Shown: positions 6,475 through 34,205 of the stretch, piece by piece | How positions within the stretch are numbered: the first letter of the stretch is position 1 | How the letters are laid out: each line of letters begins with the position of its first letter | Source: Acidobacteriota bacterium | GTDB lineage: Bacteria > Acidobacteriota > Thermoanaerobaculia > UBA5066 | NCBI GenBank assembly: GCA_029781975.1 | Contig: JAKOVQ010000053.1 | Location: 248,001-312,000, forward strand | Direction of reading: 5' to 3' | Length of the DNA: 64,000 nt | Made by a program: the position numbers and the translations under genes | The notes under the pieces: model-generated | Database searches by the model: none | Told to the model about the DNA's origin: nothing | Seen by the model: the letters and a program-made list of their open reading frames with translations, nothing else

Positions 6475-6830
6475 CGCGCCGGGGCCTCCGACGGGGCGAG
6501 CCTCTCGGCGAGCGCCTCGGCGGTGATGGCGAAGTGGGAGGCGCTCCAGACGGGCTTGCCGTCCTCGAGGAGGATCACCTGGGGGGATGTGTGGCGGATC
6601 CCCGTCCGCTCCGCGAGCTCGTTCGAGAGAGGCCGCTGCTCGATGACGTGGACGACGAACACCGGGGCCCCGGGGCGGGCGGCGAGGAACCGCTCCACCT
6701 CGCGGGCCGCCGCGTGGCTGCCGCCGCACGCCGTCGAATGCTTGAAGATCAGCGCCCGCGGGAGGCGGAACGCCTCCTCGAGCTCCTCCGCGCCCCGCAC
6801 CGGGTCCAGGACCCCTCGCTCCGGTTCCAT
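6471..6830 (-). CDS. ytxJ: YtxJ-type bacillithiol-system protein (monothiol bacilliredoxin)
   Basis: This 119-residue thioredoxin-fold protein carries FKHSTACGGSHAA near residue 29, matching the FKHSTxCxxS active site of YtxJ (BrxC). The second position is non-Cys, so it is monothiol. The cis-proline segment appears as RHTSPQVILLEDGKP and the tail ends with a typical helix. The family de-bacillithiolates proteins in bacteria that make bacillithiol. Its presence implies, but does not prove, that the host makes that thiol; the synthesis genes are not in the window. It is the first gene of a two-gene unit with the SCP2-like gene. Confidence 0.85.
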   Translation of the reverse strand: MEPERGVLDPVRGAEELEEAFRLPRALIFKHSTACGGSHAAAREVERFLAARPGAPVFVVHVIEQRPLSNELAERTGIRHTSPQVILLEDGKPVWSASHFAITAEALAERLAPSEAPAR

Positions 6831-21285: not shown

Positions 21286-21837
21286 TCACGCCAGCGTCAG
21301 GCGGAAGTCGTGGCCGACCTCGTGGGCGAGGTCGACGACGAGCTGGCCGTCGTCGGCGGCGAGGGAGAGCTCGTACCAGGCCAGCGGCTTGGGGGCGGGC
21401 CCCGACTCGTTCGCCCCATCGCCCTTGTACTTCGACCCGTGGCAGGGGCAGAGGAAGCGGTGCGTGATCCGGAGGGGCTTGCCCGCGACCTCCTTCTCCT
21501 CGGTCCGCGACAGCGCCTCCGCGCGGACGGTGCACCCGAGGTGGGTGCAGACGGCCGAGATCGCGTGGAACGTCCTGCCGTCGCGGAAGACGAAGAGCCG
21601 CTGGTCCGGCAGGAACTTCAAGCCGTCGGGGAAGTCGCCCGGGAGGCCGAGCTTCACCGTCGTCGGCGCGTCGTACGAGACGTTCGGCACCAGCGACCGG
21701 AGGGAGGCGCCGGCCTGGCCCACCAGGGCCACGACGCCGGCGCCGATGCCGACCTTCATCAGGAAGTCGCGGCGGTTGTCCGTCTCTGCGGGCTCCGGCG
21801 CGGGGGGCGCGCCGGCGGGGGCCGGGTTCGTCGTCAT
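21286..21837 (-). CDS. Rieske iron-sulfur protein
   Basis: This 183-residue protein has an N-terminal anchor (NRRDFLMKVGIGAGVVALVG, with paired arginines suggesting Tat export) and a C-terminal Rieske domain. The cluster ligands are CTHLGC (about residue 96) and CPCHGSKYKGDG (about residue 132). The start ATG at 21837 overlaps the stop of the flavoprotein by four bases. It belongs to the quinol:cytochrome oxidoreductase encoded by the next two genes. The much longer open frame extending to 23811 is antisense-like read-through in another frame of the flavoprotein and is not coding. Confidence 0.93.
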   Translation of the reverse strand: MTTNPAPAGAPPAPEPAETDNRRDFLMKVGIGAGVVALVGQAGASLRSLVPNVSYDAPTTVKLGLPGDFPDGLKFLPDQRLFVFRDGRTFHAISAVCTHLGCTVRAEALSRTEEKEVAGKPLRITHRFLCPCHGSKYKGDGANESGPAPKPLAWYELSLAADDGQLVVDLAHEVGHDFRLTLA

Positions 21838-23789
21838 CGGGACACCTCGCTCGGAGCGCGGCTGACGAGCCGTTCCGTGATCGTGAAGCGCTCCATGGTC
21901 ATGGCGTCGGTCGGGCAGCGGACGGCGCAGAGCCCGCACCGGATGCACCGCTCGTCGTCCTTCACCATCGCGGAGAGGGGGAGTCCGCCCGCCTCGGCCC
22001 GCTCGACGAGGAGCCGGCGCTCCTCCTCGGGGAGGTCGACCTCCTCGAAGGGGACGATCGCCAGGCAGTACTCGGGACAGACGTCGACGCACCGGCTGCA
22101 GAGGACGCACCTCTCGGGGTCGTAGATGGTCTGGACGTGGCAGACGAGGCAGCGGGCGGCCTGGAGGCGGGCCTGGGCCTCGTCGTAGCCGTTCTCGACC
22201 TCGGCGATCCCGGTCCGCCTCCCGACGTCGATCGTCGGCGGGGCGGTCCGGTCCTCGAGCTCGAAGCCCGCGATCATCCGGTAGTGGGAGGTCGGGAGCT
22301 TCTCGATCTCGAGGACGGTCTCGAGGACGACGCCCGGCGCGCCGCCCGCGACGCGGAGAAGGTGCTCGTGGATCGACCGGGCGGCCTTCTTGCCGTTCGC
22401 GACCGCCTCGATCAGGTTCCGCGGCCCGAAGGCGACGTCGCCGCCGGCGTAGATGCCCGGCGCCGACGTCGCGAGGGTGGCGGGATCGACGCGGATCGTC
22501 CCTCCGCCGGTCAGGGCGACCCCGTCCTCCGGCCTGAGAAACGAGAGGTCGGGCTTCTGCCCGATCGCCAGGACGCAGCCGTCGGCCTCGAGGGTGAGGG
22601 TCTCGGCGTCGTCGTAGGCGGGGGAGAAGCGGCCGTTCTCGTCGAAGACGGAGAGGACCCGCCGGAGCTCGATCCCCGAGAGGCGCGAGGAGCCGACGAA
22701 CCGCTTGGGCCCCCACCGCGTCAGGAACGAGATCCCCTCCCGGCGCGCCTCCTCGAACTCCTCGTGCCCCTGGGTCGTCCGGAGGACCGGCATCTCGTCG
22801 AAGCTCTCGAGGGAGACGACGGTCACCTCGGCCGCGCCTCCGCGGAGGGCCGCCCGGGCCGAGTCGAACGCTTCCTTCACCCGGGCGTCGGCGGCGCCGG
22901 CCTCGCGCTGGAGGACGTCGAGCTCCTCCTCCTTGAAGACGCGCAGCGCCGTCCGCGCCGCGTCGAACGCGACGAAGCCGCCGCCGATGACGACGACCCG
23001 CCGGCCGAGGTCCATCCGGTAGCCCCGGTTGACGTTGAGGAGGAAGTCGACGGCCTTGACGACGCCGTCGAGCTCGACTCCGGGGACGGCCAGGTCCCGT
23101 CCCTGCGACACCCCCACCGACAGGAAGACGGCGTCGAACCCGCTCCTCCGGAGGTCGGCGAGGCCGAAGGACGGGGTGAGGGGAGTCCCGAGCCTCAGCG
23201 TGACGCCGAGCGCCAGGATCTTCTCGACCTCGGCCCGGATGAGGGTCCGGGGCAGGCGGTACTCGGGGATGCCGAAGCGCATCATCCCGCCCGGCTCGCC
23301 CGCCCCCTCGAAGACGGTGACCTCGTGCCCCAGGAGGGCGAGGTCGTGCGCGGCCGAAAGGCCCGCCGGCCCTGCTCCGACGACCGCCACGCGCCTGCCG
23401 CGGGGAGCCGGTGATTCCGGGACGACGGGGAGGTGCCCCGCGTACCGGTTCCCCTCCGAGACGAGCTCGGAGACGAGGCGGTCCTGCGTCTGCGGCCGGA
23501 TCGACTCGGCCCCGTACCGCTCGGTGACGAACCGCTTCAAGGCCCGGATGGAGACCGGCGCGTCGATGGAGCCCCGGCGGCAGGCGTCCTCGCACGGCGC
23601 CGCGCAGACCCGCCCGCAGACGGAGGCGAACGGGTTGGGAGCGCGGGCGACGAGGAAGGCCTCCTCGTCGCGCCGCTCGGCGATCAGCTGGACGTAGCGC
23701 CCGGCGTCGGTCGAGACCGGACAGCCCGCCTGGCACTTGACCTGGGCCTTCCAGTCGGGCAGCTCGGGGATCCTCGCGGCGATCGGCAT
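21834..23789 (-). CDS. GltD-like FAD/NAD(P) oxidoreductase with C-terminal ferredoxin domain
   Basis: This is a 651-residue soluble flavoprotein. Residues about 19-75 carry the cysteines of the GltD-type iron-sulfur domain (KCQAGCP, SVCGRVCAAPCEDACRRG). FAD binding is at VAVVGAGPAGLSAA (about 134) and NAD(P) binding at VVVIGGGFVAFDAA (about 265), with the closing IYAGGDVAFG block. The last ~110 residues hold CLVCH and two ferredoxin-type [4Fe-4S] sites (CVLCSRCVDVCPEYC and CIRCGLCAVRCPTDA). It is the first gene of the nos operon and is translationally coupled to the Rieske gene. It may feed NAD(P)H or ferredoxin electrons to the pathway or serve maturation. No direct partner can be proved from sequence. 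No membrane segment is seen. Confidence 0.85.
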   Translation of the reverse strand: MPIAARIPELPDWKAQVKCQAGCPVSTDAGRYVQLIAERRDEEAFLVARAPNPFASVCGRVCAAPCEDACRRGSIDAPVSIRALKRFVTERYGAESIRPQTQDRLVSELVSEGNRYAGHLPVVPESPAPRGRRVAVVGAGPAGLSAAHDLALLGHEVTVFEGAGEPGGMMRFGIPEYRLPRTLIRAEVEKILALGVTLRLGTPLTPSFGLADLRRSGFDAVFLSVGVSQGRDLAVPGVELDGVVKAVDFLLNVNRGYRMDLGRRVVVIGGGFVAFDAARTALRVFKEEELDVLQREAGAADARVKEAFDSARAALRGGAAEVTVVSLESFDEMPVLRTTQGHEEFEEARREGISFLTRWGPKRFVGSSRLSGIELRRVLSVFDENGRFSPAYDDAETLTLEADGCVLAIGQKPDLSFLRPEDGVALTGGGTIRVDPATLATSAPGIYAGGDVAFGPRNLIEAVANGKKAARSIHEHLLRVAGGAPGVVLETVLEIEKLPTSHYRMIAGFELEDRTAPPTIDVGRRTGIAEVENGYDEAQARLQAARCLVCHVQTIYDPERCVLCSRCVDVCPEYCLAIVPFEEVDLPEEERRLLVERAEAGGLPLSAMVKDDERCIRCGLCAVRCPTDAMTMERFTITERLVSRAPSEVSR

Positions 23790-23837
23790 CTCGCGGCTCC
23801 GTTGCCCGCAAGATGGACCGCCGGTGCCGGGGTGCCC

Positions 23838-23851
23838 ATGACCGGCGTCAT
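23838..23851. promoter_or_regulatory. Crp/Fnr-like operator upstream of the nos operon
   Basis: The sequence ATGAC-CGGC-GTCAT is a perfect 5+5 inverted repeat with a 4-base centre, the geometry of FNR/DNR boxes (TTGAT-N4-ATCAA). Its centre is about 55 bases upstream of the flavoprotein start at 23789. The identical 14-mer, in reverse complement, occurs at 26757. Assignment to the Crp/Fnr protein encoded at 10583 is inference. Confidence 0.6.
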
Positions 23852-23867
23852 GCCGCCCCCCGGTTCG

Positions 23868-26171
23868 TCAATACCGGTACGAGAGGTTGGCGAAGAGGGT
23901 CCGGCCCGGCTCGGGGACCTTCACCCCCGAGCGGAACGGGTCGCGCTGGGACGAGAGGTGCTCCGCGTAGAGCCGGTCGAAGAGGTTCTCGACTCCCGCC
24001 ACGAGCCTCACGGCGCCGAGGGTGACTCCCGCCTTCAGGTTCGCCACGCCCCAGCCGGGGGTGGGCGCCTCGGAGAGGTCCGCGTCGACGTGGTCCTGCG
24101 CCGCCGCGAAGACCCCCTCCACCTCGAGGAAGAAGCGCCCGTCGTCCCAGCGCGCGCTGGCGCGCCCCGAGAGGGGCGGGATCTCGGCGACGTCGGTCGC
24201 CAGGATCCCGATCCCGGGCCGGGCGTCCTGGGTGGCGCGGACGTAGGAGAGGGAGCCCGCGAGGAAGACGCGGTCGGTCGCGGCGACCGAGGCGCTCGCC
24301 TCGACGCCGCGCATCACGGCGTCGACGTTCGCGTAGGTGCGGGCCCGGGGGTTCATCACGCCCGGCACGGCGTTGACCTTCTGCTGGGCGTAGATCACGA
24401 CGAGGCCGTCGACGCTGCTGGCGAAGGCGTTCGCGGAGAGGACGACGCCGGAGCGCCGCCACGACGCCCCGAGGTCGACGCCGGTGTTCCGAGTCGGGTC
24501 GAGGGAGGGGTTCCCCACCCAGTCGCTCCCCGTCCGGCGGAGGGCGAGGTAGCGCTCCTCCCCCTCGGGGATCCGCGCGGTGCTCCCGGAGCCGAGCGTC
24601 AGCTCCAGCCCCTGGGACGCGTTCCAGCGCAGGCGCAGGTGGCCGGCGGGGAGCGTGTCGGTCCTCCGCGTCTCGCGGGTCCCGTGATAGGCCCACCAGA
24701 GATCGGTCGGCGCCTTGCTCGCGTCGGCGGAGGCGACAGCCCGGTCGACGCGCGCGCCGGCGTCGAGGAGGAACGCGCCCCCGAGCGGGAACGTGCGGCT
24801 GGCGTAGACGCCGACGACGTCGGCGGTCGCGGCGGGGAGCGACGCCTGCGGGGCGTACTTCATCCCGGCCATCGAGGTCGTCGTGTCCCAGTACCTGCGG
24901 TAGGCCTCGACGCCGGCGGTCGTCGTCGCCACGACCGCCTCGAGGCGGCCCTCGAGCGCCCGCGAGAAGGCGTCGGTCCCCATCGACCAGCCGCGGGGGG
25001 TGCCGGTCCCGGAGGTCCGGAACTGGTCCGTCATCCAGTGGTCCACCTGGGCGTAGGAGGCCTGGAGCCTGACGGACGAGACGGCGCCGCCGGCGGGTCT
25101 CAGCTCGTAGCTCAGCCCGAACCGGTCGGTGTCGTCGGTGATCGCGTCCATCTGGAGCGTGGGGTAGAAGACCTGGTCGGCTGCCTGACGGGCGTACGTC
25201 AGCTCGACCGCGTGCCCCTCCGCGGGAGCGAAGCCGACCTTCCCCCAGCCGGTGAAGGCGCGGTAGGCCTCGGCCTCGCGGGCGTCCGCGGCGTAGTTCG
25301 TCAGGTCGGTGAAGCGGCGGCCGTCGCCCCCCTCGTAGGCGAGGGAGCGCCGGTAGGCGGCCCCGGCCAGGACCGACAGGGTGGGCGAAGCCCACGAGGC
25401 GGTGAGCGACGGGTTGACCGCTCCCCACGAGCCGCCCGCGACGTTGGCCGTCGCGTGCCAGCCGCTCTCCGGCTTCTTCGTGACGACGTTCACGACGCCT
25501 CCGAGGCTCCCCTGGCTCCGGACGTCGAACGGCCCCTTGGCGACCTCGACGCGGTCGACCTCGGCGAAGTCGACGTGGAACGAGGGGGGGTCCATGTGGT
25601 TCGGGCAGGCCCCGTAGACGCGGTCGCCGTCGACGAGGACGTTGAGGTCGCGGCTCGAGAGGCCCCGGACGACGACGTCGTTCCCGATCCCTCCCTTCCG
25701 GAGCTTCTCCACCCCGGGGAGCTGCGCGAGGGCCTCGCCGACGTCGCGGGCCGCGCTCTCGCGGATCCGCGCGCTCTCCAGGCTGTCGCGCGGGGCGGGA
25801 CCGACGACGGTCACGGCCTCTCGCAGCCGGGCGAGCGGGAGGGGGACGTCGAGGACGCGGGTCTCGCCCGCGCCGAGCGTCAGGGAGGGGACGGTCCGGG
25901 TCTCGAACCCGGGGAGCTCGACGCGCACCGCGTACGTCCCGGGGGCGATCGCCCCGGAGCGGTAGACGCCGCGGTCTCCGGAGGCGACGACGACCGGCGG
26001 TCCCTTCTCGGGGAGGAGCGTGATCCGCGCGCCGGGGAGGCCGGTCCCGTCCTCGGCCAGGACGGCGCCCTGGATCGCGGCGGAGGGCGACTGCGCCGCG
26101 CCGCCGCTTGCGCCGAGGACCGCGGCGAGGAGCAGGGTGGAGAGGAGGACGAGGGGTCTTCTCGGATTCAT
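23868..26171 (-). CDS. TonB-dependent outer-membrane receptor, OprC/NosA-like (copper)
   Basis: This 767-residue receptor has a signal peptide (about residues 1-26), a carboxypeptidase-regulatory-like beta domain (about 30-110), a plug domain with NDVVVRGLSSRDLNVLVDGD (about 163-183), and a 22-strand barrel ending in LFANLSYRY with the terminal aromatic Tyr. In the plug, C189-P-N-H-M193 matches the CxxxM copper site of OprC, and H378-W-M380 in the barrel could supply the HxM half of that site. NosA/OprC proteins bring copper into the periplasm and are linked to N2O reductase. Position next to the nos operon agrees. Substrate is inferred, not shown. A 9-bp hairpin precedes the start. Confidence 0.85.
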   Translation of the reverse strand: MNPRRPLVLLSTLLLAAVLGASGGAAQSPSAAIQGAVLAEDGTGLPGARITLLPEKGPPVVVASGDRGVYRSGAIAPGTYAVRVELPGFETRTVPSLTLGAGETRVLDVPLPLARLREAVTVVGPAPRDSLESARIRESAARDVGEALAQLPGVEKLRKGGIGNDVVVRGLSSRDLNVLVDGDRVYGACPNHMDPPSFHVDFAEVDRVEVAKGPFDVRSQGSLGGVVNVVTKKPESGWHATANVAGGSWGAVNPSLTASWASPTLSVLAGAAYRRSLAYEGGDGRRFTDLTNYAADAREAEAYRAFTGWGKVGFAPAEGHAVELTYARQAADQVFYPTLQMDAITDDTDRFGLSYELRPAGGAVSSVRLQASYAQVDHWMTDQFRTSGTGTPRGWSMGTDAFSRALEGRLEAVVATTTAGVEAYRRYWDTTTSMAGMKYAPQASLPAATADVVGVYASRTFPLGGAFLLDAGARVDRAVASADASKAPTDLWWAYHGTRETRRTDTLPAGHLRLRWNASQGLELTLGSGSTARIPEGEERYLALRRTGSDWVGNPSLDPTRNTGVDLGASWRRSGVVLSANAFASSVDGLVVIYAQQKVNAVPGVMNPRARTYANVDAVMRGVEASASVAATDRVFLAGSLSYVRATQDARPGIGILATDVAEIPPLSGRASARWDDGRFFLEVEGVFAAAQDHVDADLSEAPTPGWGVANLKAGVTLGAVRLVAGVENLFDRLYAEHLSSQRDPFRSGVKVPEPGRTLFANLSYRY

Positions 26172-26310: not shown

Positions 26311-26718
26311 TCAGGCCGCGCAGGAGGGGGCGGGAGCGGGGCGGGGTGGGGGCGTGAGGGGAGAGCCGCGCCTGCCCCGCGGCCGGAGGGGAGCGGCGGG
26401 GGCGGTGCGAGAGGTCCCCGGTCGGGCGAGCGGCTCGGGGCCGGGGAGGAGCCCTTCGTCGAAGGAGAGGGACGGCGGCGCGCCGGGCGCGGCGGGCGCC
26501 TCGTCCCGGCACCCGCTCCACGCCCCCTCCGGAGGGACCGCCTCCGGCCCGGCCCGGTGGCAGAGGCCGGCCTCGCAGCAGGCCATCCGGACCGGACACG
26601 TGCAGTGCGGATGCCGGGGCCGTGACGTCGGGCGGGCCGCGGCCGCGAGCGGCGCCAGCAGGGTCGCCGTGACGACGGCGAGGAGGAGGGCTCCCGAGAG
26701 GGCGCGCGTGGCTCGCAT
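26311..26718 (-). CDS. Small Cys-rich exported protein upstream of the copper receptor
   Basis: This encodes 135 residues of unknown family. It starts with a Sec signal (about residues 5-27, LSGALLLAVVTATLLAPLAA) and then a Cys-rich block, HCTCPVRMACCEAGLCHRAG (about residues 38-57), with five cysteines, a methionine and histidines. The remainder is Pro/Arg/Ala-rich and probably disordered, with a penultimate cysteine region at the end (SCAA). Such a block could bind Cu(I). It precedes the TonB receptor on the same strand with a 139-base gap and stands divergent from the permease-SPFH operon. A copper-related role is inferred from context and residue content only. Confidence 0.6.
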   Translation of the reverse strand: MRATRALSGALLLAVVTATLLAPLAAAARPTSRPRHPHCTCPVRMACCEAGLCHRAGPEAVPPEGAWSGCRDEAPAAPGAPPSLSFDEGLLPGPEPLARPGTSRTAPAAPLRPRGRRGSPLTPPPRPAPAPSCAA

Positions 26719-26756
26719 CCGTGCGGAGGTTATGGGCCCCGAGGGCCCGCCGGAGT

Positions 26757-26770
26757 ATGACGCCGGTCAT
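26757..26770. promoter_or_regulatory. Crp/Fnr-like operator in the divergent copper/permease region
   Basis: ATGAC-GCCG-GTCAT is the reverse complement of the box at 23838-23851, identical over all 14 bases. Its centre is 45 bases from the start of the Cys-rich gene and 66 bases from the permease-SPFH start, so it could serve either or both divergent units. A larger repeat (cgccggt/accggcg) overlaps its right half. Confidence 0.55.
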
Positions 26771-26829: not shown

Positions 26830-29079
26830 ATGGGGGTCCCCGTGAGTTTCCTCCTCGCCGTCGTCCAGGAGACCTACCGCGTCGTGGTCGACAGCGCCCT
26901 CTTCCTCCTCGTCGGCTTCGTCCTGGCGGGCGTCCTCCACGAGCTGGTCGACGTCGCACGCGTCGCCCACGCGCTCGGGGCCCGGAACCTCCGGTCGATC
27001 CTCGTCGCCACGCTCGTCGGAGCCCCGCTCCCCCTCTGCTCGTGCGGCGTCCTCCCCGCGGCGGTGGCGCTCCGGAGGAAGGGGGCCAGCCGGGAGGCGA
27101 CGGTGGCGTTCCTGATCTCCACTCCGGAGACGGGGGCCGACTCCGTCCTCCTCACCTACGGGCTCTTCGGCCCGCTCCTCGCCGTCGTCCGGCCGCTCGC
27201 GGCGATCGTGACCAGCGTCGTCGCGGGGCTGCTGTCGCTTCTCTCCCCGCCCTCGCCGCCGGATCTCCCCGTCCTCGGGGACGCCCCGGCCGGCGCCGGC
27301 CGGGGAGAAGGGGAGGGCGCCGGAGGCGGGCTCCGCGGGCGCGTCGAGCGGATCGGCCGGTACGCCTTCGTCACGATGATGGACGAGCTCGCCTTCTGGC
27401 TGGCCTCGGCCTTCCTCCTCACCGGGATCCTCGCAGCCCTCCTCCCGGCCGGGTTCTTCCTCCGCTTCCTCCCGAGCCCGATCGTCGGGATGGTCCTGAT
27501 GGCGCTGATCGGGATCCCGACCTACGTCTGCGCCAGCGCCTCGACGCCCCTCGCGGCCGCGCTCGTCGCCAAGGGGCTCTCGCCGGGGGCCGCCCTCGTC
27601 TTCATGCTGACGGGCCCGGCGACGAACGCGTCGACCATCGCCGTCGTCGCGCGCCTGTTCGGCCGGCGCTTCCTCCTCGTCTACCTCGGGGCCATCTTCG
27701 GCGTCGCGATCGCCGCCGGCCTGGCGCTGGACGCGGTCCTGGGGGCGGGGATCGTCCCCCGGCCCGCGGTGGCGTCCGCGGAGGCGACCGGCCTCTTCGC
27801 GCTCGTCAAGCTCGCCTCCGCCTTCGTCCTCCTCGTCGCCCTCTTCCTGAGCCTCAAGCGGCGCGGGGTGAGGGAGGGGATCGAGGAGCTCCGCGGGCAC
27901 GGGCGCGCCCTCGCCGAGCTCGTCGCCTCGATCCCGTTCGGCCGCGTCCCGCGCCGAGCCCTGGCGTGGACCGCCGCGGCCGCCGCGGTCCTCCTCGCCG
28001 GCTGGTCGTCGATCCTCGTCGTCCGGCCGGGCGAGGCCGGCGTCGTCCGGACCTTCGGCCGCGTCACGGCGTCCCGCCTCCCCCCCGGCCTCCACCTCGT
28101 CCCCCCGTATCCGATCGGGCGCGCCGAGGTCGTCGCGGTCGACCGCGTCCGCGCGGTCTCGGTGGGGTTCCGGCTCCGCCCCGACGAGGCGGCCTCGAAG
28201 GGTGCGGCGCTCGCGTCGGGGACCTTCGTCCCGGGGCGGTCGATGCGGCTCGCCGAGGAGGCGCAGCTCGTCACCGGGGACGAGAACGTCATCGAGGTGG
28301 CCGGCATCGTGACCTACCGGGTCGCCGACCCGGCGCGCTTCCTCTTCGGCGTCGACCGCGTCGAGGCCGCCCTGCGCGACCTCGCGCGCTCGTTCCTGGT
28401 GGAGGAGGCGGGCACGATGCCGATCGACGCCATCTACTCGGCCGAGCGCGGGACGGCGGAGCGGGCCGTCCTCGCCCGGCTGGCGGCGTGCCCCTCGCTC
28501 CCGGAGATGGGGGTCCGCGTGGAGGACGTGAGGCTCCTGTACGTCCACGCCCCCGACGAGGTCCATACGGCGTTCCGCGACGTCGCCTCGGCGTCCGAGG
28601 ACGGGAAGACGCTCCGGAACAAGGCGCTCGTGGCGGCGGAGGGAGAGCTGGGGGCGGCGCGCAGCGACGCCGCGCGGACGGTCGCCGAGGCCGAGTCGGC
28701 CCGGATGGAATCGGTCGACACGGCGCGCGGGGACGCGGCCGCGTTCGTCCCCCTGGCGCGCGAGGTGCGCGCCGCCCCGGCCGTCTCGCGCTTCCGCCTG
28801 CGGGTCGAGACGCTCGAGAGGAGCCTCGCGGGGGTCCCGAAGGTGATCCGCCCCGCCGGCCGGAAGGCGGGGTCGCTCGAGCTCTGGATCGTCCCCCCGG
28901 CCACCGGGCCGGGAGGCGCTCCGGCCGCGGGCGCGTCCGCCGCAGGGCCGGGCGCCCCTCCGCTCTCAGGGATCTCGGGGCTCTCCGGCCTCTCGCGCCT
29001 CCTCGACCCGATCCCAGCGCCGGTCGAGGAGCCGGTCCCCGAGCCCGCACCCACGCCCCAGGAGCCGAACGACAGATGA
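26830..29079 (+). CDS. SO_0444/ArsP-type permease fused to an SPFH (HflK-like) domain
   Basis: This 749-residue fusion has two parts. Residues 1 to about 350 form a permease with the motif PLPLCSCGVLPAA and then LISTPETGADS, marks of the SO_0444 family (DUF318/ArsP superfamily), members of which export metals such as copper, zinc or arsenicals. After a helix near residue 380, residues about 392-690 form an SPFH/Band 7 domain (VRPGEAGVVRTFGRV, PPGLHLVPPYPIG, AQLVTGDENVIEVAGIVTYR) of HflK type with a helical tail, then a Pro/Ala-rich end. A single open frame covers both without a break. The ATG at 26830 is chosen over an upstream TTG. Its stop overlaps the next SPFH gene (ATGA). It is the founder of a three-SPFH operon; the fusion is unusual in my knowledge. 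Confidence 0.85.
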   Translation: MGVPVSFLLAVVQETYRVVVDSALFLLVGFVLAGVLHELVDVARVAHALGARNLRSILVATLVGAPLPLCSCGVLPAAVALRRKGASREATVAFLISTPETGADSVLLTYGLFGPLLAVVRPLAAIVTSVVAGLLSLLSPPSPPDLPVLGDAPAGAGRGEGEGAGGGLRGRVERIGRYAFVTMMDELAFWLASAFLLTGILAALLPAGFFLRFLPSPIVGMVLMALIGIPTYVCASASTPLAAALVAKGLSPGAALVFMLTGPATNASTIAVVARLFGRRFLLVYLGAIFGVAIAAGLALDAVLGAGIVPRPAVASAEATGLFALVKLASAFVLLVALFLSLKRRGVREGIEELRGHGRALAELVASIPFGRVPRRALAWTAAAAAVLLAGWSSILVVRPGEAGVVRTFGRVTASRLPPGLHLVPPYPIGRAEVVAVDRVRAVSVGFRLRPDEAASKGAALASGTFVPGRSMRLAEEAQLVTGDENVIEVAGIVTYRVADPARFLFGVDRVEAALRDLARSFLVEEAGTMPIDAIYSAERGTAERAVLARLAACPSLPEMGVRVEDVRLLYVHAPDEVHTAFRDVASASEDGKTLRNKALVAAEGELGAARSDAARTVAEAESARMESVDTARGDAAAFVPLAREVRAAPAVSRFRLRVETLERSLAGVPKVIRPAGRKAGSLELWIVPPATGPGGAPAAGASAAGPGAPPLSGISGLSGLSRLLDPIPAPVEEPVPEPAPTPQEPNDR

Positions 29080-30014
29080 CCGACGAGTCTTCCGCCCGTC
29101 CCCCCTCCCGCCGCCGGCGGCTCGCCCTCGCGGCCGCGGCCGCCGCCGCCGTGCTCGTCCTCTCGCAGGTCCCGTACGTCGTCGACGCGACCGAGCTCGC
29201 CGTCCGGACGCGCTTCGGCCGGCCGGTCGAGGTGGTGAAGGAGCCGGGCCTCCTGCTCAAGGTCCCGTTCGTCGACTCGGTCACGCGGCTCGACGGACGC
29301 CTCCTCTTCCTCGACCCGCCGGCGGCCGAGTTCCTCACGAGCGACAAGAAGAACATCGTCGTCGCCCCGTTCGTCCTCTGGCGGATCGCGGAGCCGCTCG
29401 AGTTCCTCCAGAGCCTCGGGACGCGCGAGAGCGCCGAGGCGCGCCTGGCGGACCTCGTCGCCTCCGAGACCGGGACGGCGCTCGGCGGCGTCCCCTTCGC
29501 GCGGCTGATCTCGGCGGCCCCGGGCGAGGCGCAGCTCGAGGAGGTGGTCGGGAAGGTGGCGGCTGCCGTCCGCGAGCGCGCGCGGCGCGACTACGGCGTG
29601 GAGGTGGTCGACGTGAGGCTGAAGCGCCTCGCCTTCCCCGACCAGAACCTCGTCAGCGTCTTCGGCCGGATGCGCTCCGAGCGCGAGCAGATCGCCCGCA
29701 GGTTCCGGTCGGAAGGGGAGGAGGCCGCCGCGAAGATCCGCGCCGAGGCGGACAAGGAGCGGAGCCGTCTCCTCGCCGAGGCGTACCGGACGGCCGCCGA
29801 GACCCGCGGCGAGGGGGAGGCCGAGGCGGCCCGCGTCTACGCGAAGGCGACGAGCCTCGACCCCGACCTCTACCGGTTCCTCCGGACGCTGCAGGCGTAC
29901 GACAGGATCCTCGACGACAGGACGACGCTGGTCCTCCCGGCCGACTCGGACCTCCTGCGCCTCCTGACCGAAGGGCCCGCGCCGGCGGCGGGGAAGGGGA
30001 GAGGGGAGAGGTGA
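29076..30014 (+). CDS. HflC-like SPFH/Band 7 membrane protein
   Basis: This 312-residue protein has one N-terminal helix (RLALAAAAAAAVLVLSQVPY) and then an SPFH domain with HflC-type features: TELAVRTRFGRPV, EPGLLLKVPFVDSV, DKKNIVVAPFVLWRI and RARRDYGVEVVDVRLKRL. The coiled-coil segment RMRSEREQIARRFRSEGEEA (about residues 205-225) is typical of HflC. HflK and HflC form a large membrane cage around FtsH in Escherichia coli; no ftsH is present here. It is coupled by four-base overlaps to the permease-SPFH fusion before it and the HflK-like gene after it, so the three probably assemble together. Confidence 0.87.
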   Translation: MTDESSARPPSRRRRLALAAAAAAAVLVLSQVPYVVDATELAVRTRFGRPVEVVKEPGLLLKVPFVDSVTRLDGRLLFLDPPAAEFLTSDKKNIVVAPFVLWRIAEPLEFLQSLGTRESAEARLADLVASETGTALGGVPFARLISAAPGEAQLEEVVGKVAAAVRERARRDYGVEVVDVRLKRLAFPDQNLVSVFGRMRSEREQIARRFRSEGEEAAAKIRAEADKERSRLLAEAYRTAAETRGEGEAEAARVYAKATSLDPDLYRFLRTLQAYDRILDDRTTLVLPADSDLLRLLTEGPAPAAGKGRGER

Positions 30015-30952
30015 CGCCGCGCGGGGCGCTCCGCTGGGCCGGGTGGGCCGCACTGGCCGCGGGGACCCTCTGGGTGCTCCTCGGGATCGTCGTCGTCCGC
30101 CCGTCGCAGCAGGGGGTCGTCCTGAGGCTCGGCGTGCCCCGTCCCGCCCCGCTGGGGCCGGGGATCCACTGGGTCCCGCGCGGCATCGACCGGTTCGTCC
30201 GGGTCGAGGTGACGCGTACCTACACGATGCCGGTCGGCTTCCGGATGGTCGACTCCGTCCGCGGCGCCGCGCCTTCGCCGGAGGAGAGCTCGTTCCTGAC
30301 GGGCGACACGAACATCCTCACGGTGGAGATGGCGCTCCAGTACCGGATCGCCCGCCCCGTCCCTTACGTCGTCCGGGGCCGCGAGGCGCCCGAGGTCCTC
30401 CGGCGCGCGGCCGAGTCGGTGGTCACCGCCGTCCTCGGCACCCTGCCGGTCGACGAGGCGCTGACGTCGGGGCGGCTCCCGTTCGCCGAGGCGGTGCGGA
30501 GGCGGACCCAGGAGCTCCTCGACCGGTGGGACGTCGGCCTCCACGTCGACTCGGTGGCCCTCCGGACGATCGAGCCGCCGAGCCCGGTCCGGGCGGCGTT
30601 CCAGGACGTGCAGAACGCGCGGAGCGACCGCGAGCGCTTCGTCAACGAGGCCCAGTCCTACGCCAACGAGACCCTCCCGCGCGCGCGGGGCGAGGCGCTC
30701 GCGCGGGTCACCGCCGCGGAAGGGGAGAAGGCCCGGCGGATCGAGGCGGCTCGCGGCGACGCCGCCCGCTTCGAGGCGGTGCGGCGCCAGGCCGCCCTCG
30801 CGCCCGCCTCGCTGCGCGAGCGGCTCTACCTCGAGGCGCTGGAGAAGGCGCTTCCGAGGATGACGGTCTACGTCGTCGACCCGACGACGAGCCTGAGGCT
30901 CGTCCGCCCGGCATTGCCCGCCCCGGCGGCCCCGGCCTCGGGCGGACGATGA
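30011..30952 (+). CDS. HflK-like SPFH/Band 7 membrane protein
   Basis: This 313-residue protein begins at the GTG at 30011, overlapping the previous stop (GTGA). It has one membrane helix (about residues 10-28, AGWAALAAGTLWVLLGIVVV) and an HflK-type SPFH domain: RPSQQGVVLRLGVP, GPGIHWVPRGID, SSFLTGDTNILTVEMALQYR, and EPPSPVRAAFQDVQNARSDR. The last is the HflK-like segment preceding a long helix rich in Ala/Glu/Arg. The C-terminal tail is Pro/Ala-rich. This is the third SPFH module of the operon. A Ser/Thr kinase starts 47 bases downstream on the same strand and may be co-transcribed. Confidence 0.87.
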   Translation: MTPRGALRWAGWAALAAGTLWVLLGIVVVRPSQQGVVLRLGVPRPAPLGPGIHWVPRGIDRFVRVEVTRTYTMPVGFRMVDSVRGAAPSPEESSFLTGDTNILTVEMALQYRIARPVPYVVRGREAPEVLRRAAESVVTAVLGTLPVDEALTSGRLPFAEAVRRRTQELLDRWDVGLHVDSVALRTIEPPSPVRAAFQDVQNARSDRERFVNEAQSYANETLPRARGEALARVTAAEGEKARRIEAARGDAARFEAVRRQAALAPASLRERLYLEALEKALPRMTVYVVDPTTSLRLVRPALPAPAAPASGGR

Positions 30953-30999: not shown

Positions 31000-32784
31000 A
31001 TGGGCCTGACGGCGGGGACGACGCTCGGGCGCTACGAGCTGCGGACGAAGCTCGGGGCGGGCGGGATGGCCGAGGTGTGGGAGGCGTTCGACCAGAGCCT
31101 CCACAGGACCGTGGCGGTCAAGGTCGTCCTCGAGAACATGTCGGCGGACGAGGAGTTCCGCCAGCGCTTCCAGCGCGAGGCGCGCGTCGTCGCCGGGCTC
31201 CGCCACCGGAGCATCCTCGCCGTCTTCGACTTCGGGGAGGACCAGGGCCGGCCCTACCTCGTCATGCCGCTCATGACCGCGGGGCACCTCAGGGACCGGA
31301 TGCAAGGGGTGGTCTCCCCCGAGATGGCCGTCGTCTGGCTCCGGGAGATCGCCGAGGGCCTCGACCACGCGAACGCGCGGGGGATCGTCCACCGAGACGT
31401 GAAGCCCTCGAACGTCCTCGTCGACGCCGACGGCCACCTCACCCTCGCGGACTTCGGCCTCGCGCGGGACCTGAAGACCGGCTCCGGGGCGCTGACGGCC
31501 CCGGGCCTCGTCATGGGGACGGCGAACTACATCGCCCCGGAGCAGGCCCTGGGGCAGGACCTCGACGGCCGGTGCGACCAGTACGCCCTCGGCGTCATCG
31601 CCTTCGAGATGCTGACGGGGAAGCTGCCGTTCTCCGCGCCGACCTCGCTCCTGATGCTGAACAAGCACATCTCGGAGGCCCCTCCGAAGGCGACGAAGGT
31701 CAACCCGCAGCTCCCGCCCGCGGTCGACGACGTGATGCGCAAGGTCCTCGCGAAGACCGCGCCCGAGCGGTACCCGTCCTGCGTGGCGTTCGTCGACGCG
31801 CTCGAGAAGGCCATCCTCCCGATGACGGAGGCGATGGCCGTCGCCGGCCTTCCGCTCCGGGGGTCGGGCGAGGTCCCCCGGCCGCGGGCGAGCGCGTCGG
31901 ACGCGCCCGCCCGGGATCGCCGGCCGTCCGGCCCGGTCCGCCCGCCGGCGGCTCGTCCCGCTTCGGGGTCGGCTCCGTCGAGCTCGCCGGCCGGGGGCCG
32001 CGCCGGCGCGATCGTGGCGGCGCTCCTCGCCGGGCTCGTCCTGGCGACGGGCGGGTACTTCCTCTTCGGCCGCCTCCGCGACAAGGGGCTGCTCGGCCCC
32101 GTCGCCTCGCTCCTGGAGCCGCCGGCTCAGCCGACCCCCGCCGCCGGGGCGGAGGAGCCCGCCCGGCCCGCTGGCGGAGGCGCACCGGCGACCGCCGAGC
32201 AGCCGGTCCCCTCGACGGCGAGCGGGAACACCGCGGCCGCCACGACCGCCGCGGCCGCCGCGGCGCCGACCCCCGAGGAGCTCCCCGTCTCGGTCGTCGA
32301 GCAGGCGACCCCCGTCCCTGCCGCGGCATCGACGCCGGGAGCGGTCCCCTCTCCGATTCCGACTCCCGCCCCGGGGCTCTCTCCCGTCGCCCCGCCCGCT
32401 GGCGCCCTCGACCCGTCGAACCTCGACCGGTTCCAGGTCGCGCTCGTCAGGACCTATCCGGCCGGGAGCACGACGGCGGTCCTCGTCGGGCTGAAGGCGA
32501 TCCTCTCCTTCCGCGAGCCCGTCGACCTGCCGTCCGAGCCGGGGAGCGTCGTCTCGGCCGTCCTCCACGGCGCCTCCGGGGAGAAGGTCCTCCTCCGGCC
32601 GGGGACGCCGACGCCGGTCCAGCCGGCGCCGGCGCGCACCCGGACGGTGGAGCTCCTCGTCCCGCTCTCGGACGCCCTCGCCTCGCTGGCCGACCCGGCC
32701 TACGACACCATCCGGCTGAAGCTCGCCGTCGCGGGCCGGACCTTCGAGACCGAGGCGGTCATCCCCCCGCAGGCGCGGAAGTAG
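31000..32784 (+). CDS. Membrane-anchored PknB-type Ser/Thr protein kinase
   Basis: This 594-residue protein has an N-terminal kinase domain (about residues 10-275): P-loop LGAGGMAEVWEA, VAVK lysine, catalytic IVHRDVKPSNVLV, DFG in LADFGLARDL and the activation segment GTANYIAPEQAL. A linker rich in Pro/Ser/Arg leads to one membrane helix (AIVAALLAGLVLATGGYFLF, about 332-351). An Ala/Pro/Thr-rich stretch follows, then a C-terminal periplasmic domain (about 470-590) with no PASTA repeats. All catalytic residues are present. The external domain probably senses a signal or binds a partner. The upstream SPFH operon may share its transcript. A PP2C phosphatase that could oppose it is at 52595. Confidence 0.92.
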   Translation: MGLTAGTTLGRYELRTKLGAGGMAEVWEAFDQSLHRTVAVKVVLENMSADEEFRQRFQREARVVAGLRHRSILAVFDFGEDQGRPYLVMPLMTAGHLRDRMQGVVSPEMAVVWLREIAEGLDHANARGIVHRDVKPSNVLVDADGHLTLADFGLARDLKTGSGALTAPGLVMGTANYIAPEQALGQDLDGRCDQYALGVIAFEMLTGKLPFSAPTSLLMLNKHISEAPPKATKVNPQLPPAVDDVMRKVLAKTAPERYPSCVAFVDALEKAILPMTEAMAVAGLPLRGSGEVPRPRASASDAPARDRRPSGPVRPPAARPASGSAPSSSPAGGRAGAIVAALLAGLVLATGGYFLFGRLRDKGLLGPVASLLEPPAQPTPAAGAEEPARPAGGGAPATAEQPVPSTASGNTAAATTAAAAAAPTPEELPVSVVEQATPVPAAASTPGAVPSPIPTPAPGLSPVAPPAGALDPSNLDRFQVALVRTYPAGSTTAVLVGLKAILSFREPVDLPSEPGSVVSAVLHGASGEKVLLRPGTPTPVQPAPARTRTVELLVPLSDALASLADPAYDTIRLKLAVAGRTFETEAVIPPQARK

Positions 32785-32808: not shown

Positions 32809-33807
32809 TCATTCCTTCGGAGGGGGGGCGGGGAGCTGGCCGGAGAGGGCCGTCATCCCGCTGAGGCCGCCCAGGCCCATCGTCTCGACCGCGCTCGACG
32901 GGACGATGACCATCGAGCCCTTCTCCTTGATCGCCTCGTACAGCATGTTCATCGCGCGGAGGTGAAGGGCGAGGGGCCTCCCCTCGTAGGCCTGCCCGGC
33001 CTTCACGAACCGCTCGGAGATCTCGGTCTCGGCCGTGCCGAGGATGATCCGGGCCTGCCGCTCGCGCTCCGCCTGGGCCTGGCGGCTCATGGCGTCCTCG
33101 AGCTCGGCGGGGATCTTCACGTCGCGGATCTCGACGGAGTTGACGGTGATCCCCCAGGGGTTCGTCTTCTCGTCGAGGATCTTCTGCAGCTCGCGCCCCA
33201 GCTGGTCGCGCTCGGTGATCATCTCGGCGAGCTGGTGCTTGCCGATCGACTCGCGCAGCGCCGTCTGCGCGGAGAAGAGGATGGCGTCGATGTAGTCGGA
33301 GACCTCGAGGACCGACTTCCGCGCGTCCCATACCGTCCAGAAGACGATGGCGTCGACGTTGACCGGCACGGTGTCCCGCGTGAGCGCCGACTCGGCCGTG
33401 ACGTCGGAGACCCTCACGCGCTGGTCGACGAGGTGGGAGACGACGTCGACGACCGGGACGACGGCGAAGAGGCCGGGGCCCTTCAGCCCCCGGAACTTCC
33501 CGAAGCGGAGGACGACGGCGCGCTCCCACTGCCGGGCGACCTTGAGCGAGAAGAGGAGGTAGAGGCCGACGAGGAGGGCGCCGAGGAACGGGAACGGGGA
33601 GGCCGTCACCCCCGAGGCGATCCCGCCGAGCGCGAGGCAGACGAAGAACGCGAGGAGGCCGATCTCCGAGACGACGCGGCGCGCGTCGGCGGCGGCGTCG
33701 CGCTTGCGTTGCTTGCGCTCGGCGGACTTCTCGAGCGGGCTCTTCGGCTCGGGCTCGGCCTCGAGGGCCTTGGCGGCGGCCTTCCTGATGGCTGCGATGG
33801 GGATCAC
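32809..33807 (-). CDS. Slipin/stomatin-like SPFH membrane protein
   Basis: This 332-residue protein has a charged N-terminus, two hydrophobic segments (about residues 47-68 and 72-88) and a stomatin-type SPFH domain: ERAVVLRFGKFRGLKGPGLF, VDQRVRVSDVTAESALTRDT, and NPWGITVNSVEIRDVKIPAE. The SRQAQAERERQARIILGTAE helix is strongly conserved in slipins. The GTG start at 33807 overlaps the stop of the upstream GntR regulator (GTGA), so it is the second gene of an autoregulated operon. This is the fourth SPFH protein within 7 kb. It belongs to a different branch from the HflK/C-like three. Confidence 0.9.
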   Translation of the reverse strand: MIPIAAIRKAAAKALEAEPEPKSPLEKSAERKQRKRDAAADARRVVSEIGLLAFFVCLALGGIASGVTASPFPFLGALLVGLYLLFSLKVARQWERAVVLRFGKFRGLKGPGLFAVVPVVDVVSHLVDQRVRVSDVTAESALTRDTVPVNVDAIVFWTVWDARKSVLEVSDYIDAILFSAQTALRESIGKHQLAEMITERDQLGRELQKILDEKTNPWGITVNSVEIRDVKIPAELEDAMSRQAQAERERQARIILGTAETEISERFVKAGQAYEGRPLALHLRAMNMLYEAIKEKGSMVIVPSSAVETMGLGGLSGMTALSGQLPAPPPKE

Positions 33808-34205
33808 GGCACCCTCCTTCGACTGCCGCCCGCCCGGGCCGAGAGGGCGTCGGCGACCTCGGCGCTCGAGAAGCCGTGAGAGCCGGCCCGCGCCAGGAAC
33901 TCGTCGATCAGCTGCTCCAGGGCCTTCCGCCGCTCGGCGGCGCTCTCGGAGCCGGACCGGGCCGCGACGAACGTCCCGGTCCCCTGCTGCGTCTCCACGA
34001 TCCCCCGGATCTCCATCTCACGGTACGCCTTCGCCACCGTGTTGAGGTTCACCTCGAGGTCCACGGCGAGCTGCCGGACGGTCGGCAGCTGGGTCCCGGG
34101 GTGGAGGCGCCCGTCGGCCACCGCCAGGAGGACCTGGTCGATGATCTGCCGGTAGAAGGGGACCCCGGAGCCGGTGTCGAGGCGGAACGGGACGGTGGTC
34201 GTCAT
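33804..34205 (-). CDS. GntR-family (YtrA-type) transcriptional regulator
   Basis: This 133-residue regulator has an N-terminal GntR winged helix (VPFYRQIIDQVLLAVADGRL, LPTVRQLAVDLEVNLNTVAK, GIVETQQGTGTFVA) and only a short helical C-terminal tail (about residues 88-130). That is the architecture of the YtrA subfamily, which often controls membrane or transport genes in the same operon. The ATG at 34205 lies 15 bases from a perfect 13-bp inverted repeat (34221-34250) that is the obvious operator. It is translationally coupled to the slipin gene, so it probably represses itself and the slipin until an unknown ligand or cue releases it. Confidence 0.92.
   Translation of the reverse strand: MTTTVPFRLDTGSGVPFYRQIIDQVLLAVADGRLHPGTQLPTVRQLAVDLEVNLNTVAKAYREMEIRGIVETQQGTGTFVAARSGSESAAERRKALEQLIDEFLARAGSHGFSSAEVADALSARAGGSRRRVP

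Follow-up and report, generated by a model that had tools for sequence, protein, structure and literature searches.

Analysis of a 64,000-nucleotide stretch of an Acidobacteriota genome (Thermoanaerobaculia, UBA5066; assembly GCA_029781975.1, contig JAKOVQ010000053.1, positions 248,001 to 312,000; hereafter the window, in which positions are counted from its first letter) revealed an open reading frame in which an SO_0444/ArsP-type metal permease continues into an HflK-like SPFH domain, with two further SPFH genes directly behind it. Fusion and trio are conserved across two phyla, the SPFH trio being constant and the metal transporter exchangeable (ArsP/SO_0444 permease, P1B ATPase or CDF protein). 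We consider it rather probable that the three gene products form one metal-homeostasis membrane assembly, in which an SPFH dome would be tethered to, and probably enclose, a zinc or copper transporter. Numbers beginning with G and L are our own labels for genomes and loci.

The permease–SPFH fusion and its conservation

The three genes of the window are the following:

26830–29079, + strand: gene 1, fusion of an SO_0444/ArsP-type permease with an HflK-like SPFH domain (sequence and profile matches)
29076–30014, + strand: gene 2, HflC-like SPFH protein, trio lineage S2 (TIGR01932, tree, structure chain 7vhp_G)
30011–30952, + strand: gene 3, HflK-like SPFH protein, trio lineage S3 (TIGR01933, trees)

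Gene 1 extends from an ATG at 26830 to a TGA at 29079 and encodes 749 amino acids without any internal stop codon. It matches the Pfam families ArsP_1 (residues 18–300, 125.6 bits, cut-off 32.3) and Band_7 (residues 397–592, 69.8 bits, cut-off 23.6), bearing out the single-frame fusion that an earlier note, made from the letters of the window, had described, and the CSCG and STPETG motifs named there are both seen. The permease (about residues 1–340) is followed by a predicted cytoplasmic linker, one transmembrane (TM) segment, the HflK-like SPFH domain (about residues 373–690) and a Pro/Ala-rich C-terminal tail. With 308.1 bits gene 1 passes the NCBIfam model NF033936 for the SO_0444 Cu/Zn efflux transporter (cut-off 300), for which the fusions of four relatives reach 341.5–385.5 bits, and Cu/Zn transport by the permease part is predicted from this family model. 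On the hflK model TIGR01933 gene 1 scores 148.8 bits, just below the cut-off of 159.4. Gene 2 (312 amino acids) passes the hflC model TIGR01932 with 202.8 bits (cut-off 134.4) and matches the E. coli HflC chain 7vhp_G at 1.5e-45, and gene 3 (313 amino acids) passes TIGR01933 with 203.4 bits. Genes 1 and 2 overlap by the bases ATGA (29076–29079) and genes 2 and 3 by GTGA (30011–30014), so that an HflC-like and an HflK-like gene do follow the fusion with 4-base overlaps as had been claimed.

Bins of Acidobacteriota, Thermoanaerobaculia and Holophagales are the closest named relatives of the window's genome. A search of 60 relatives detected the full-length fusion in four genomes of the same family (G004, G009, G011 and G013) at 58–62% identity, and more distant genomes (G003, G005, G057, G071, G114 and G362) carry it at 33–39% identity. 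Three of the latter (G071, G114 and G362) were added by a sample of 396 Acidobacteriota genomes, in which scoring covered the top two candidates of each genome (E ≤ 1e-32), counts therefore being lower bounds. This sample holds at least seven genomes with an ArsP–SPFH fusion (the window's own, G003, G005, G057, G071, G114 and G362), and by gene maps each of these seven has the complete set of three SPFH frames. The search for the same fusion and gene trio that the earlier note had proposed was thus successful in ten other Acidobacteriota genomes and in the alphaproteobacterium G419 (Kordiimonadaceae), where an ArsP fusion of 714 amino acids with a His-rich loop precedes both further SPFH genes. 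Because the full-length fusion recurs in many independent assemblies, the join is not a sequencing error; a frameshift or assembly artefact, which the earlier note had raised and for which no point in favour was found, is practically ruled out. That note had also considered that relatives might carry permease and SPFH parts as separate genes. Five stand-alone permeases of the same subgroup do exist, but in 20 of the 25 three-SPFH loci that were mapped a recognised metal transporter is fused to the first SPFH protein. In the remaining five, Pseudomonas-like loci, the first SPFH protein carries about six other predicted TM segments and a P1B ATPase is encoded by a separate gene.

Alternative transporters and ancestry of the SPFH proteins

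The 396-genome sample yielded 18 further genomes in which the SPFH match lies within an open frame of 930–1266 amino acids. Eight of these were mapped, and in each a P1B heavy-metal ATPase is fused to the SPFH domain; seven of them hold a complete trio (G024, G036, G370, G338, G229, G350 and G082), and in the eighth, G327, the locus ends at a contig edge. A third transporter family is found on a plasmid of Aquibium oceanicum (NZ_CP018172.1), where a CDF–SPFH fusion (CDF domain: PF01545, 89.0 bits; TIGR01297, 90.0 bits, cut-off 82.35) is followed by HflC- and HflK-type genes.

The conserved motifs of these transporter families are taken as marks of activity, and they are mostly intact. CSCG/CSCS is present in 11 of 12 ArsP forms (the pattern was not found in L076) and CASASTP/CASMSTP also in 11 of 12 (absent in L074), all seven P1B forms have CPC and DKTGTLT and four of them GDGIND, and the CDF form contains two copies of HxxxD. 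A His-rich N-terminal stretch occurs on the HflC-like subunit of nine of the 25 trios, belonging to two genera, versus none of 71 canonical HflC proteins. The presence of other, unrelated metal transporters in the same slot strengthens the case for a transporter assembly and gives the arrangement the look of a reusable "transporter in a cage".

Further CDF fusions were recognised neither in the 398 genomes searched, where the CDF query mostly returned canonical HflC/HflK, nor in 15 of the 48 records matching among 72,556 plasmids, where a query coverage of at least 80% was reached in the Aquibium record only. Similarly, a search of Pseudomonadota with gene 2 alone mostly returns canonical HflC/HflK and does not provide a reliable census of trios. 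Six plasmid HflK–HflC loci (H1, H7, H8, H11, H19 and H21) that had been candidates for trios were rejected as ordinary two-gene pairs without a metal transporter. On three alphaproteobacterial plasmids (L127, L128 and L132) hflK–hflC pairs lie near regulators of the Crp/Fnr type, with a fatty acid desaturase or NhaA nearby, an arrangement that resembles a mobile stress island. In several genomes a predicted membrane protein of 251 amino acids (L030, 3403–4158) is encoded directly upstream of the P1B–SPFH fusion; it has no Pfam or NCBIfam match and bears what we take to be a slight resemblance to Ni/Co permeases. Also, an HflK-type match inside a 653-amino-acid open frame of a pseudomonadotal genome (G441:C225, L195) might be a further fusion.

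The Pseudomonas-like loci come from the genus of G729, presumably Pseudomonas itself. All 59 genomes of this genus have an HflC match and 39 have a second, weaker one (about 1e-28 to 1e-37). Five of these 39 were examined at the level of the locus. Each of them shows three SPFH frames, the first about 650 amino acids in length, and downstream of these a P1B ATPase gene. At the two loci examined for this feature (L171, 5463–7472; L169, 8987–10960) the six or so predicted TM segments precede the first SPFH domain, and this N-terminal region belongs to no Pfam family. Gene maps showed a His-rich start of the second SPFH gene at four of the five loci, and the frame scan at all five.

In a quick tree of 104 SPFH domains out of 173 collected, all 20 HflC-like trio members, whether from ArsP, P1B, CDF or Pseudomonas-like loci, form one group (SH-aLRT 99), and in a careful tree 19 of the 25 S2 rows are separated from 13 canonical HflC proteins with branch support of 99/97. 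Careful trees of S1 and S3 were calculated without near-copies, L074 and the long-branched Pseudomonas-like rows, and 15 fused SPFH domains (nine ArsP, five P1B and one CDF) fall on one side of a branch supported by 99/98. When eight canonical HflKs near the CDF form were added, this branch retained 96/95 and the canonical HflKs formed one group (96/92). The trio of the window is not a canonical unfused two-gene hflK–hflC pair, and its members do not group with canonical HflK or HflC. The trees thus indicate that the trio SPFH proteins are lineages apart from the canonical pair, and the simplest reading would be one old trio in which the transporter has been exchanged. In a quick tree of the permeases, where row L181_sep is the window's own fused gene, the fused permeases lie within a subgroup of 14 rows; since the five stand-alone permeases are mixed among them, we claim no number of fusion events.

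The proposed assembly and alternative explanations

As read from the sequences, a single hydrophobic segment comes after each transporter and immediately precedes the SPFH domain, as it does in HflK. P1B and CDF proteins have their C-termini inside, so that one further TM segment would place the SPFH part in the periplasm, and we infer this location for all fusions. The AlphaFold monomer model of gene 1 was obtained from a shallow alignment and was interpreted for its SPFH part alone, where blocks mostly have pLDDT values of 60–86; its best match is HflK of the HflKC cage (7vhq_E, E = 1.9e-15), in agreement with the sequence search, and a structure of stomatin with aquaporin-1 (9zd2) is also among the matches.

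According to the mechanism that we propose, the permease part of gene 1 would carry metal across the inner membrane and end in the cytoplasm, one TM segment would take the chain to the periplasm, and there the SPFH part would join the products of genes 2 and 3 in a hetero-oligomeric, HflKC-like dome. By joining the dome, the SPFH part would hold the fused transporter at, and probably inside, the membrane patch beneath, and metal would enter or leave a confined periplasmic space. On a more general view, for which the chances seem evenly balanced, one ancestral trio (K1-C-K2) would be a periplasmic metal-transport chamber, with K1 bearing an exchangeable transition-metal transporter whose periplasmic mouth is isolated; in the Pseudomonas-like form K1 would carry a multi-TM domain beside a separate HmtA-type ATPase, and the His-rich tails of the HflC-like subunit would bind metal in some lineages.

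The most likely use of such an assembly would be to acquire or manage zinc or copper at low supply, although we hold the assembly itself more firmly than a direction of transport. In G362 the trio is directly followed by ZnuA/C/B-type genes, in G114 by ZnuC/B-type genes. For a comparable locus in Pseudomonas aeruginosa, excerpts of the cited papers, to which our statements on published work here and below refer, describe PA2439 (HflK), PA2438 (HflC), PA2437 (HflC family) and PA2435 (HmtA) as all up-regulated in a znuA mutant (PMC4542158), a shift of the PA2439–PA2434 promoter by Zur with zinc (PMC8531726), and a rise of the proteins of the locus upon zinc depletion that was significant for PA2438 and PA2439 (PMC11761036). 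Against a link to zinc starvation, the level of hmtA mRNA remained low and showed no repression by zinc (PMC8531726). The Zur link of this locus, the Znu-type neighbours and the adjoining TonB-dependent receptors favour metal acquisition.

Several points weigh against an assembly of this kind. The AlphaFold model of gene 1 is poor as a whole (mean pLDDT 50.2, permease part under 50), the Pseudomonas-like form encodes its ATPase separately, the CDF form comes from one plasmid alone, and gene 2 of the window has no His-rich tail. In the quick tree, L074_S1, the Pseudomonas-like S1 and S3 rows and L097_S3 are placed outside the expected groups. Also, the ArsP, P1B and CDF families are known and annotated as exporters, which sits badly with control by zinc starvation, and a mutant in SO_0444 is sensitive to an excess of Zn/Cu (PMC3219624). 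Finally, the sole hflK match above the cut-off in the window's own genome is gene 3, with the fused gene next.

This last point would suit a trio that is the organism's modulator of FtsH, equivalent to HflKC, with the permease as a passenger or as a tethered substrate of FtsH quality control. Indeed, the hflK scores that follow those of the trio in this genome are 75.7, 60.3 and 27.8 bits, ftsH is present on another contig (863.8 bits), and genes 2 and 3 pass the HflC and HflK models. However, the trio is not the only HflK match in G004, G009 and G011, the additional one in G004 consisting of two adjacent SPFH frames, the trio proteins appear to be lineages apart from canonical K and C, and a mere passenger leaves three unrelated transporters at one slot unexplained; we regard this explanation as quite improbable. 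As the genome of the window has no other hflK-like protein above the cut-off, a dual role, in which the trio also serves FtsH, is possible. Another explanation, rather unlikely in our opinion, is that the SPFH parts simply direct the transporter to a membrane microdomain without forming a closed chamber. A role as microdomain scaffolds is commonly ascribed to SPFH proteins, and the dome is predicted here from the genes, but three subunits of the HflK/C type are closer to the cage-forming HflKC than to single scaffold proteins.

A cage for efflux deserves more weight, and we consider it a real possibility that falls somewhat short of even. In such a cage the dome would take exported Zn/Cu and either shield the bulk periplasm or pass the metal on, serving detoxification or the metallation of periplasmic or membrane enzymes. 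The exporter character of all three families and the SO_0444 phenotype agree with it, and the Aquibium trio lies near genes for a P1B ATPase, PCu(A)C and SCO. On the other side stand the zinc-depletion response of PA2434–PA2439 and its Zur-bound promoter, the Znu-type genes after the trio in two genomes and the description of HmtA as an importer (PMC4542158).

Genomic surroundings and comparison with known systems

Upstream of the trio, the window contains the following divergent features:

26753–26770, + strand: candidate operator GAGTATGACGCCGGTCAT, palindrome ATGAC-N4-GTCAT in the divergent promoter (pattern search)
26311–26718, − strand: small Cys/His-rich predicted secreted protein with the motif CPVRMACCEAGLCH
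23868–26171, − strand: TonB-dependent receptor (nearest model TonB-copper, below cut-off)

The exact site GAGTATGACGCCGGTCAT occurs once in the genome, and a search at three mismatches gave eight further sites, compared to none for the reversed control pattern. Among the eight is a second copy of the palindrome (23836–23853, differing from the pattern searched at two positions) between the receptor gene and a gene for a glutamate-synthase-like flavoprotein/Fe-S protein (21834–23789). The motif GAGTATGACGCNGNTCAT was found in L035, L036, L037 and L038. An operator shared between trio and receptor operon had been claimed, and in the window, G004, G009 and G011 the palindrome does lie in the divergent promoter, whereas in G013 (L038) it stands beside a small Cys-rich gene (68–475), about 6 kb from the trio, which starts at 6485. 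Because it stays with the Cys-rich/receptor operon in G013, the palindrome seems to belong to that operon first. A nickel operator of the NikR type, considered because of a resemblance of the half-site, was dropped since the spacing is wrong.

The protein encoded at 26311–26718 has no Pfam or NCBIfam match; similar genes are present in L035 and L038, beside the TonB receptor in relatives, and a metal carrier is possible. The receptor itself adjoins the trio in the window, G004, G009 and G011. Its earlier designation as a copper receptor is in line with TonB-copper as the best model, but a score of 205 bits against a cut-off of 472 makes this a hint only. A scan for promoters and terminators gave no match. 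Downstream, 47 bases after the trio, lies a Ser/Thr protein kinase gene (31000–32784) that is not at this place in L035–L038, and a fourth SPFH protein is encoded at 32809–33807 (− strand; Band_7 133.4 bits, under the hflK and hflC cut-offs) by a gene overlapping that of a GntR-type regulator (33804–34205, − strand). In G013 an SPFH gene resembling this fourth one (L038, 10653–11210) is also found downstream of the trio.

The role of SPFH domes is a long-standing question, and one obstacle has been to learn what the domes contain. Here, the cargo is covalently attached and therefore named by the genome, with three unrelated families of metal transporters on one SPFH lineage, so that the question whether SPFH domes are transport chambers becomes directly testable on a purifiable complex of fixed cargo. 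In the open-access literature searched, as represented by excerpts and with subscription literature mostly outside its scope, an SPFH–metal-transporter fusion is not described. Our results also suggest what the SPFH trio induced by zinc starvation in P. aeruginosa may do; judging by the order of locus tags, this trio is probably identical to the three SPFH genes of the paFlo5-6-7 operon. Deletion phenotypes of that operon have so far been mild, with a slight reduction of biofilm and with attenuation in Galleria as the model host (PMC13086221).

The cage of E. coli FtsH with HflK and HflC (7vhp, 7vhq and 7wi3) shares the HflK- and HflC-like SPFH folds and the tandem genes with the window trio, which differs in having three SPFH genes of separate lineages, the first fused to a transporter, and no ftsH at the locus. 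Human stomatin forms domes that enclose AQP1 and UT-B (9zd2; preprint, PMC12407830) and is thus similar as an SPFH dome around a transport protein, an arrangement that in the window is predicted from the genes; in contrast, the stomatin dome has one kind of subunit and a cytoplasmic position, and the enclosed protein is a separate chain. The Shewanella protein SO_0444, which is predicted to lie in the membrane and shares an operon with SO_0443 (PMC3219624), resembles gene 1 by the NF033936 model passed and the CSCG motif, and the permease of the window differs from it in bearing a C-terminal SPFH domain. The nearest described locus is PA2439–PA2434, where a P1B metal ATPase accompanies three SPFH genes, one HflK-like, one HflC-like and a further one; a joint complex of SPFH proteins and HmtA is not proposed in the passages searched. 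It shares the S2 lineage with the window, as seen for the Pseudomonas-like loci rather than for PAO1 itself. In contrast to the window, HmtA is encoded by a separate gene there, and the first SPFH protein of the Pseudomonas-like loci carries a different N-terminal region in place of the permease.

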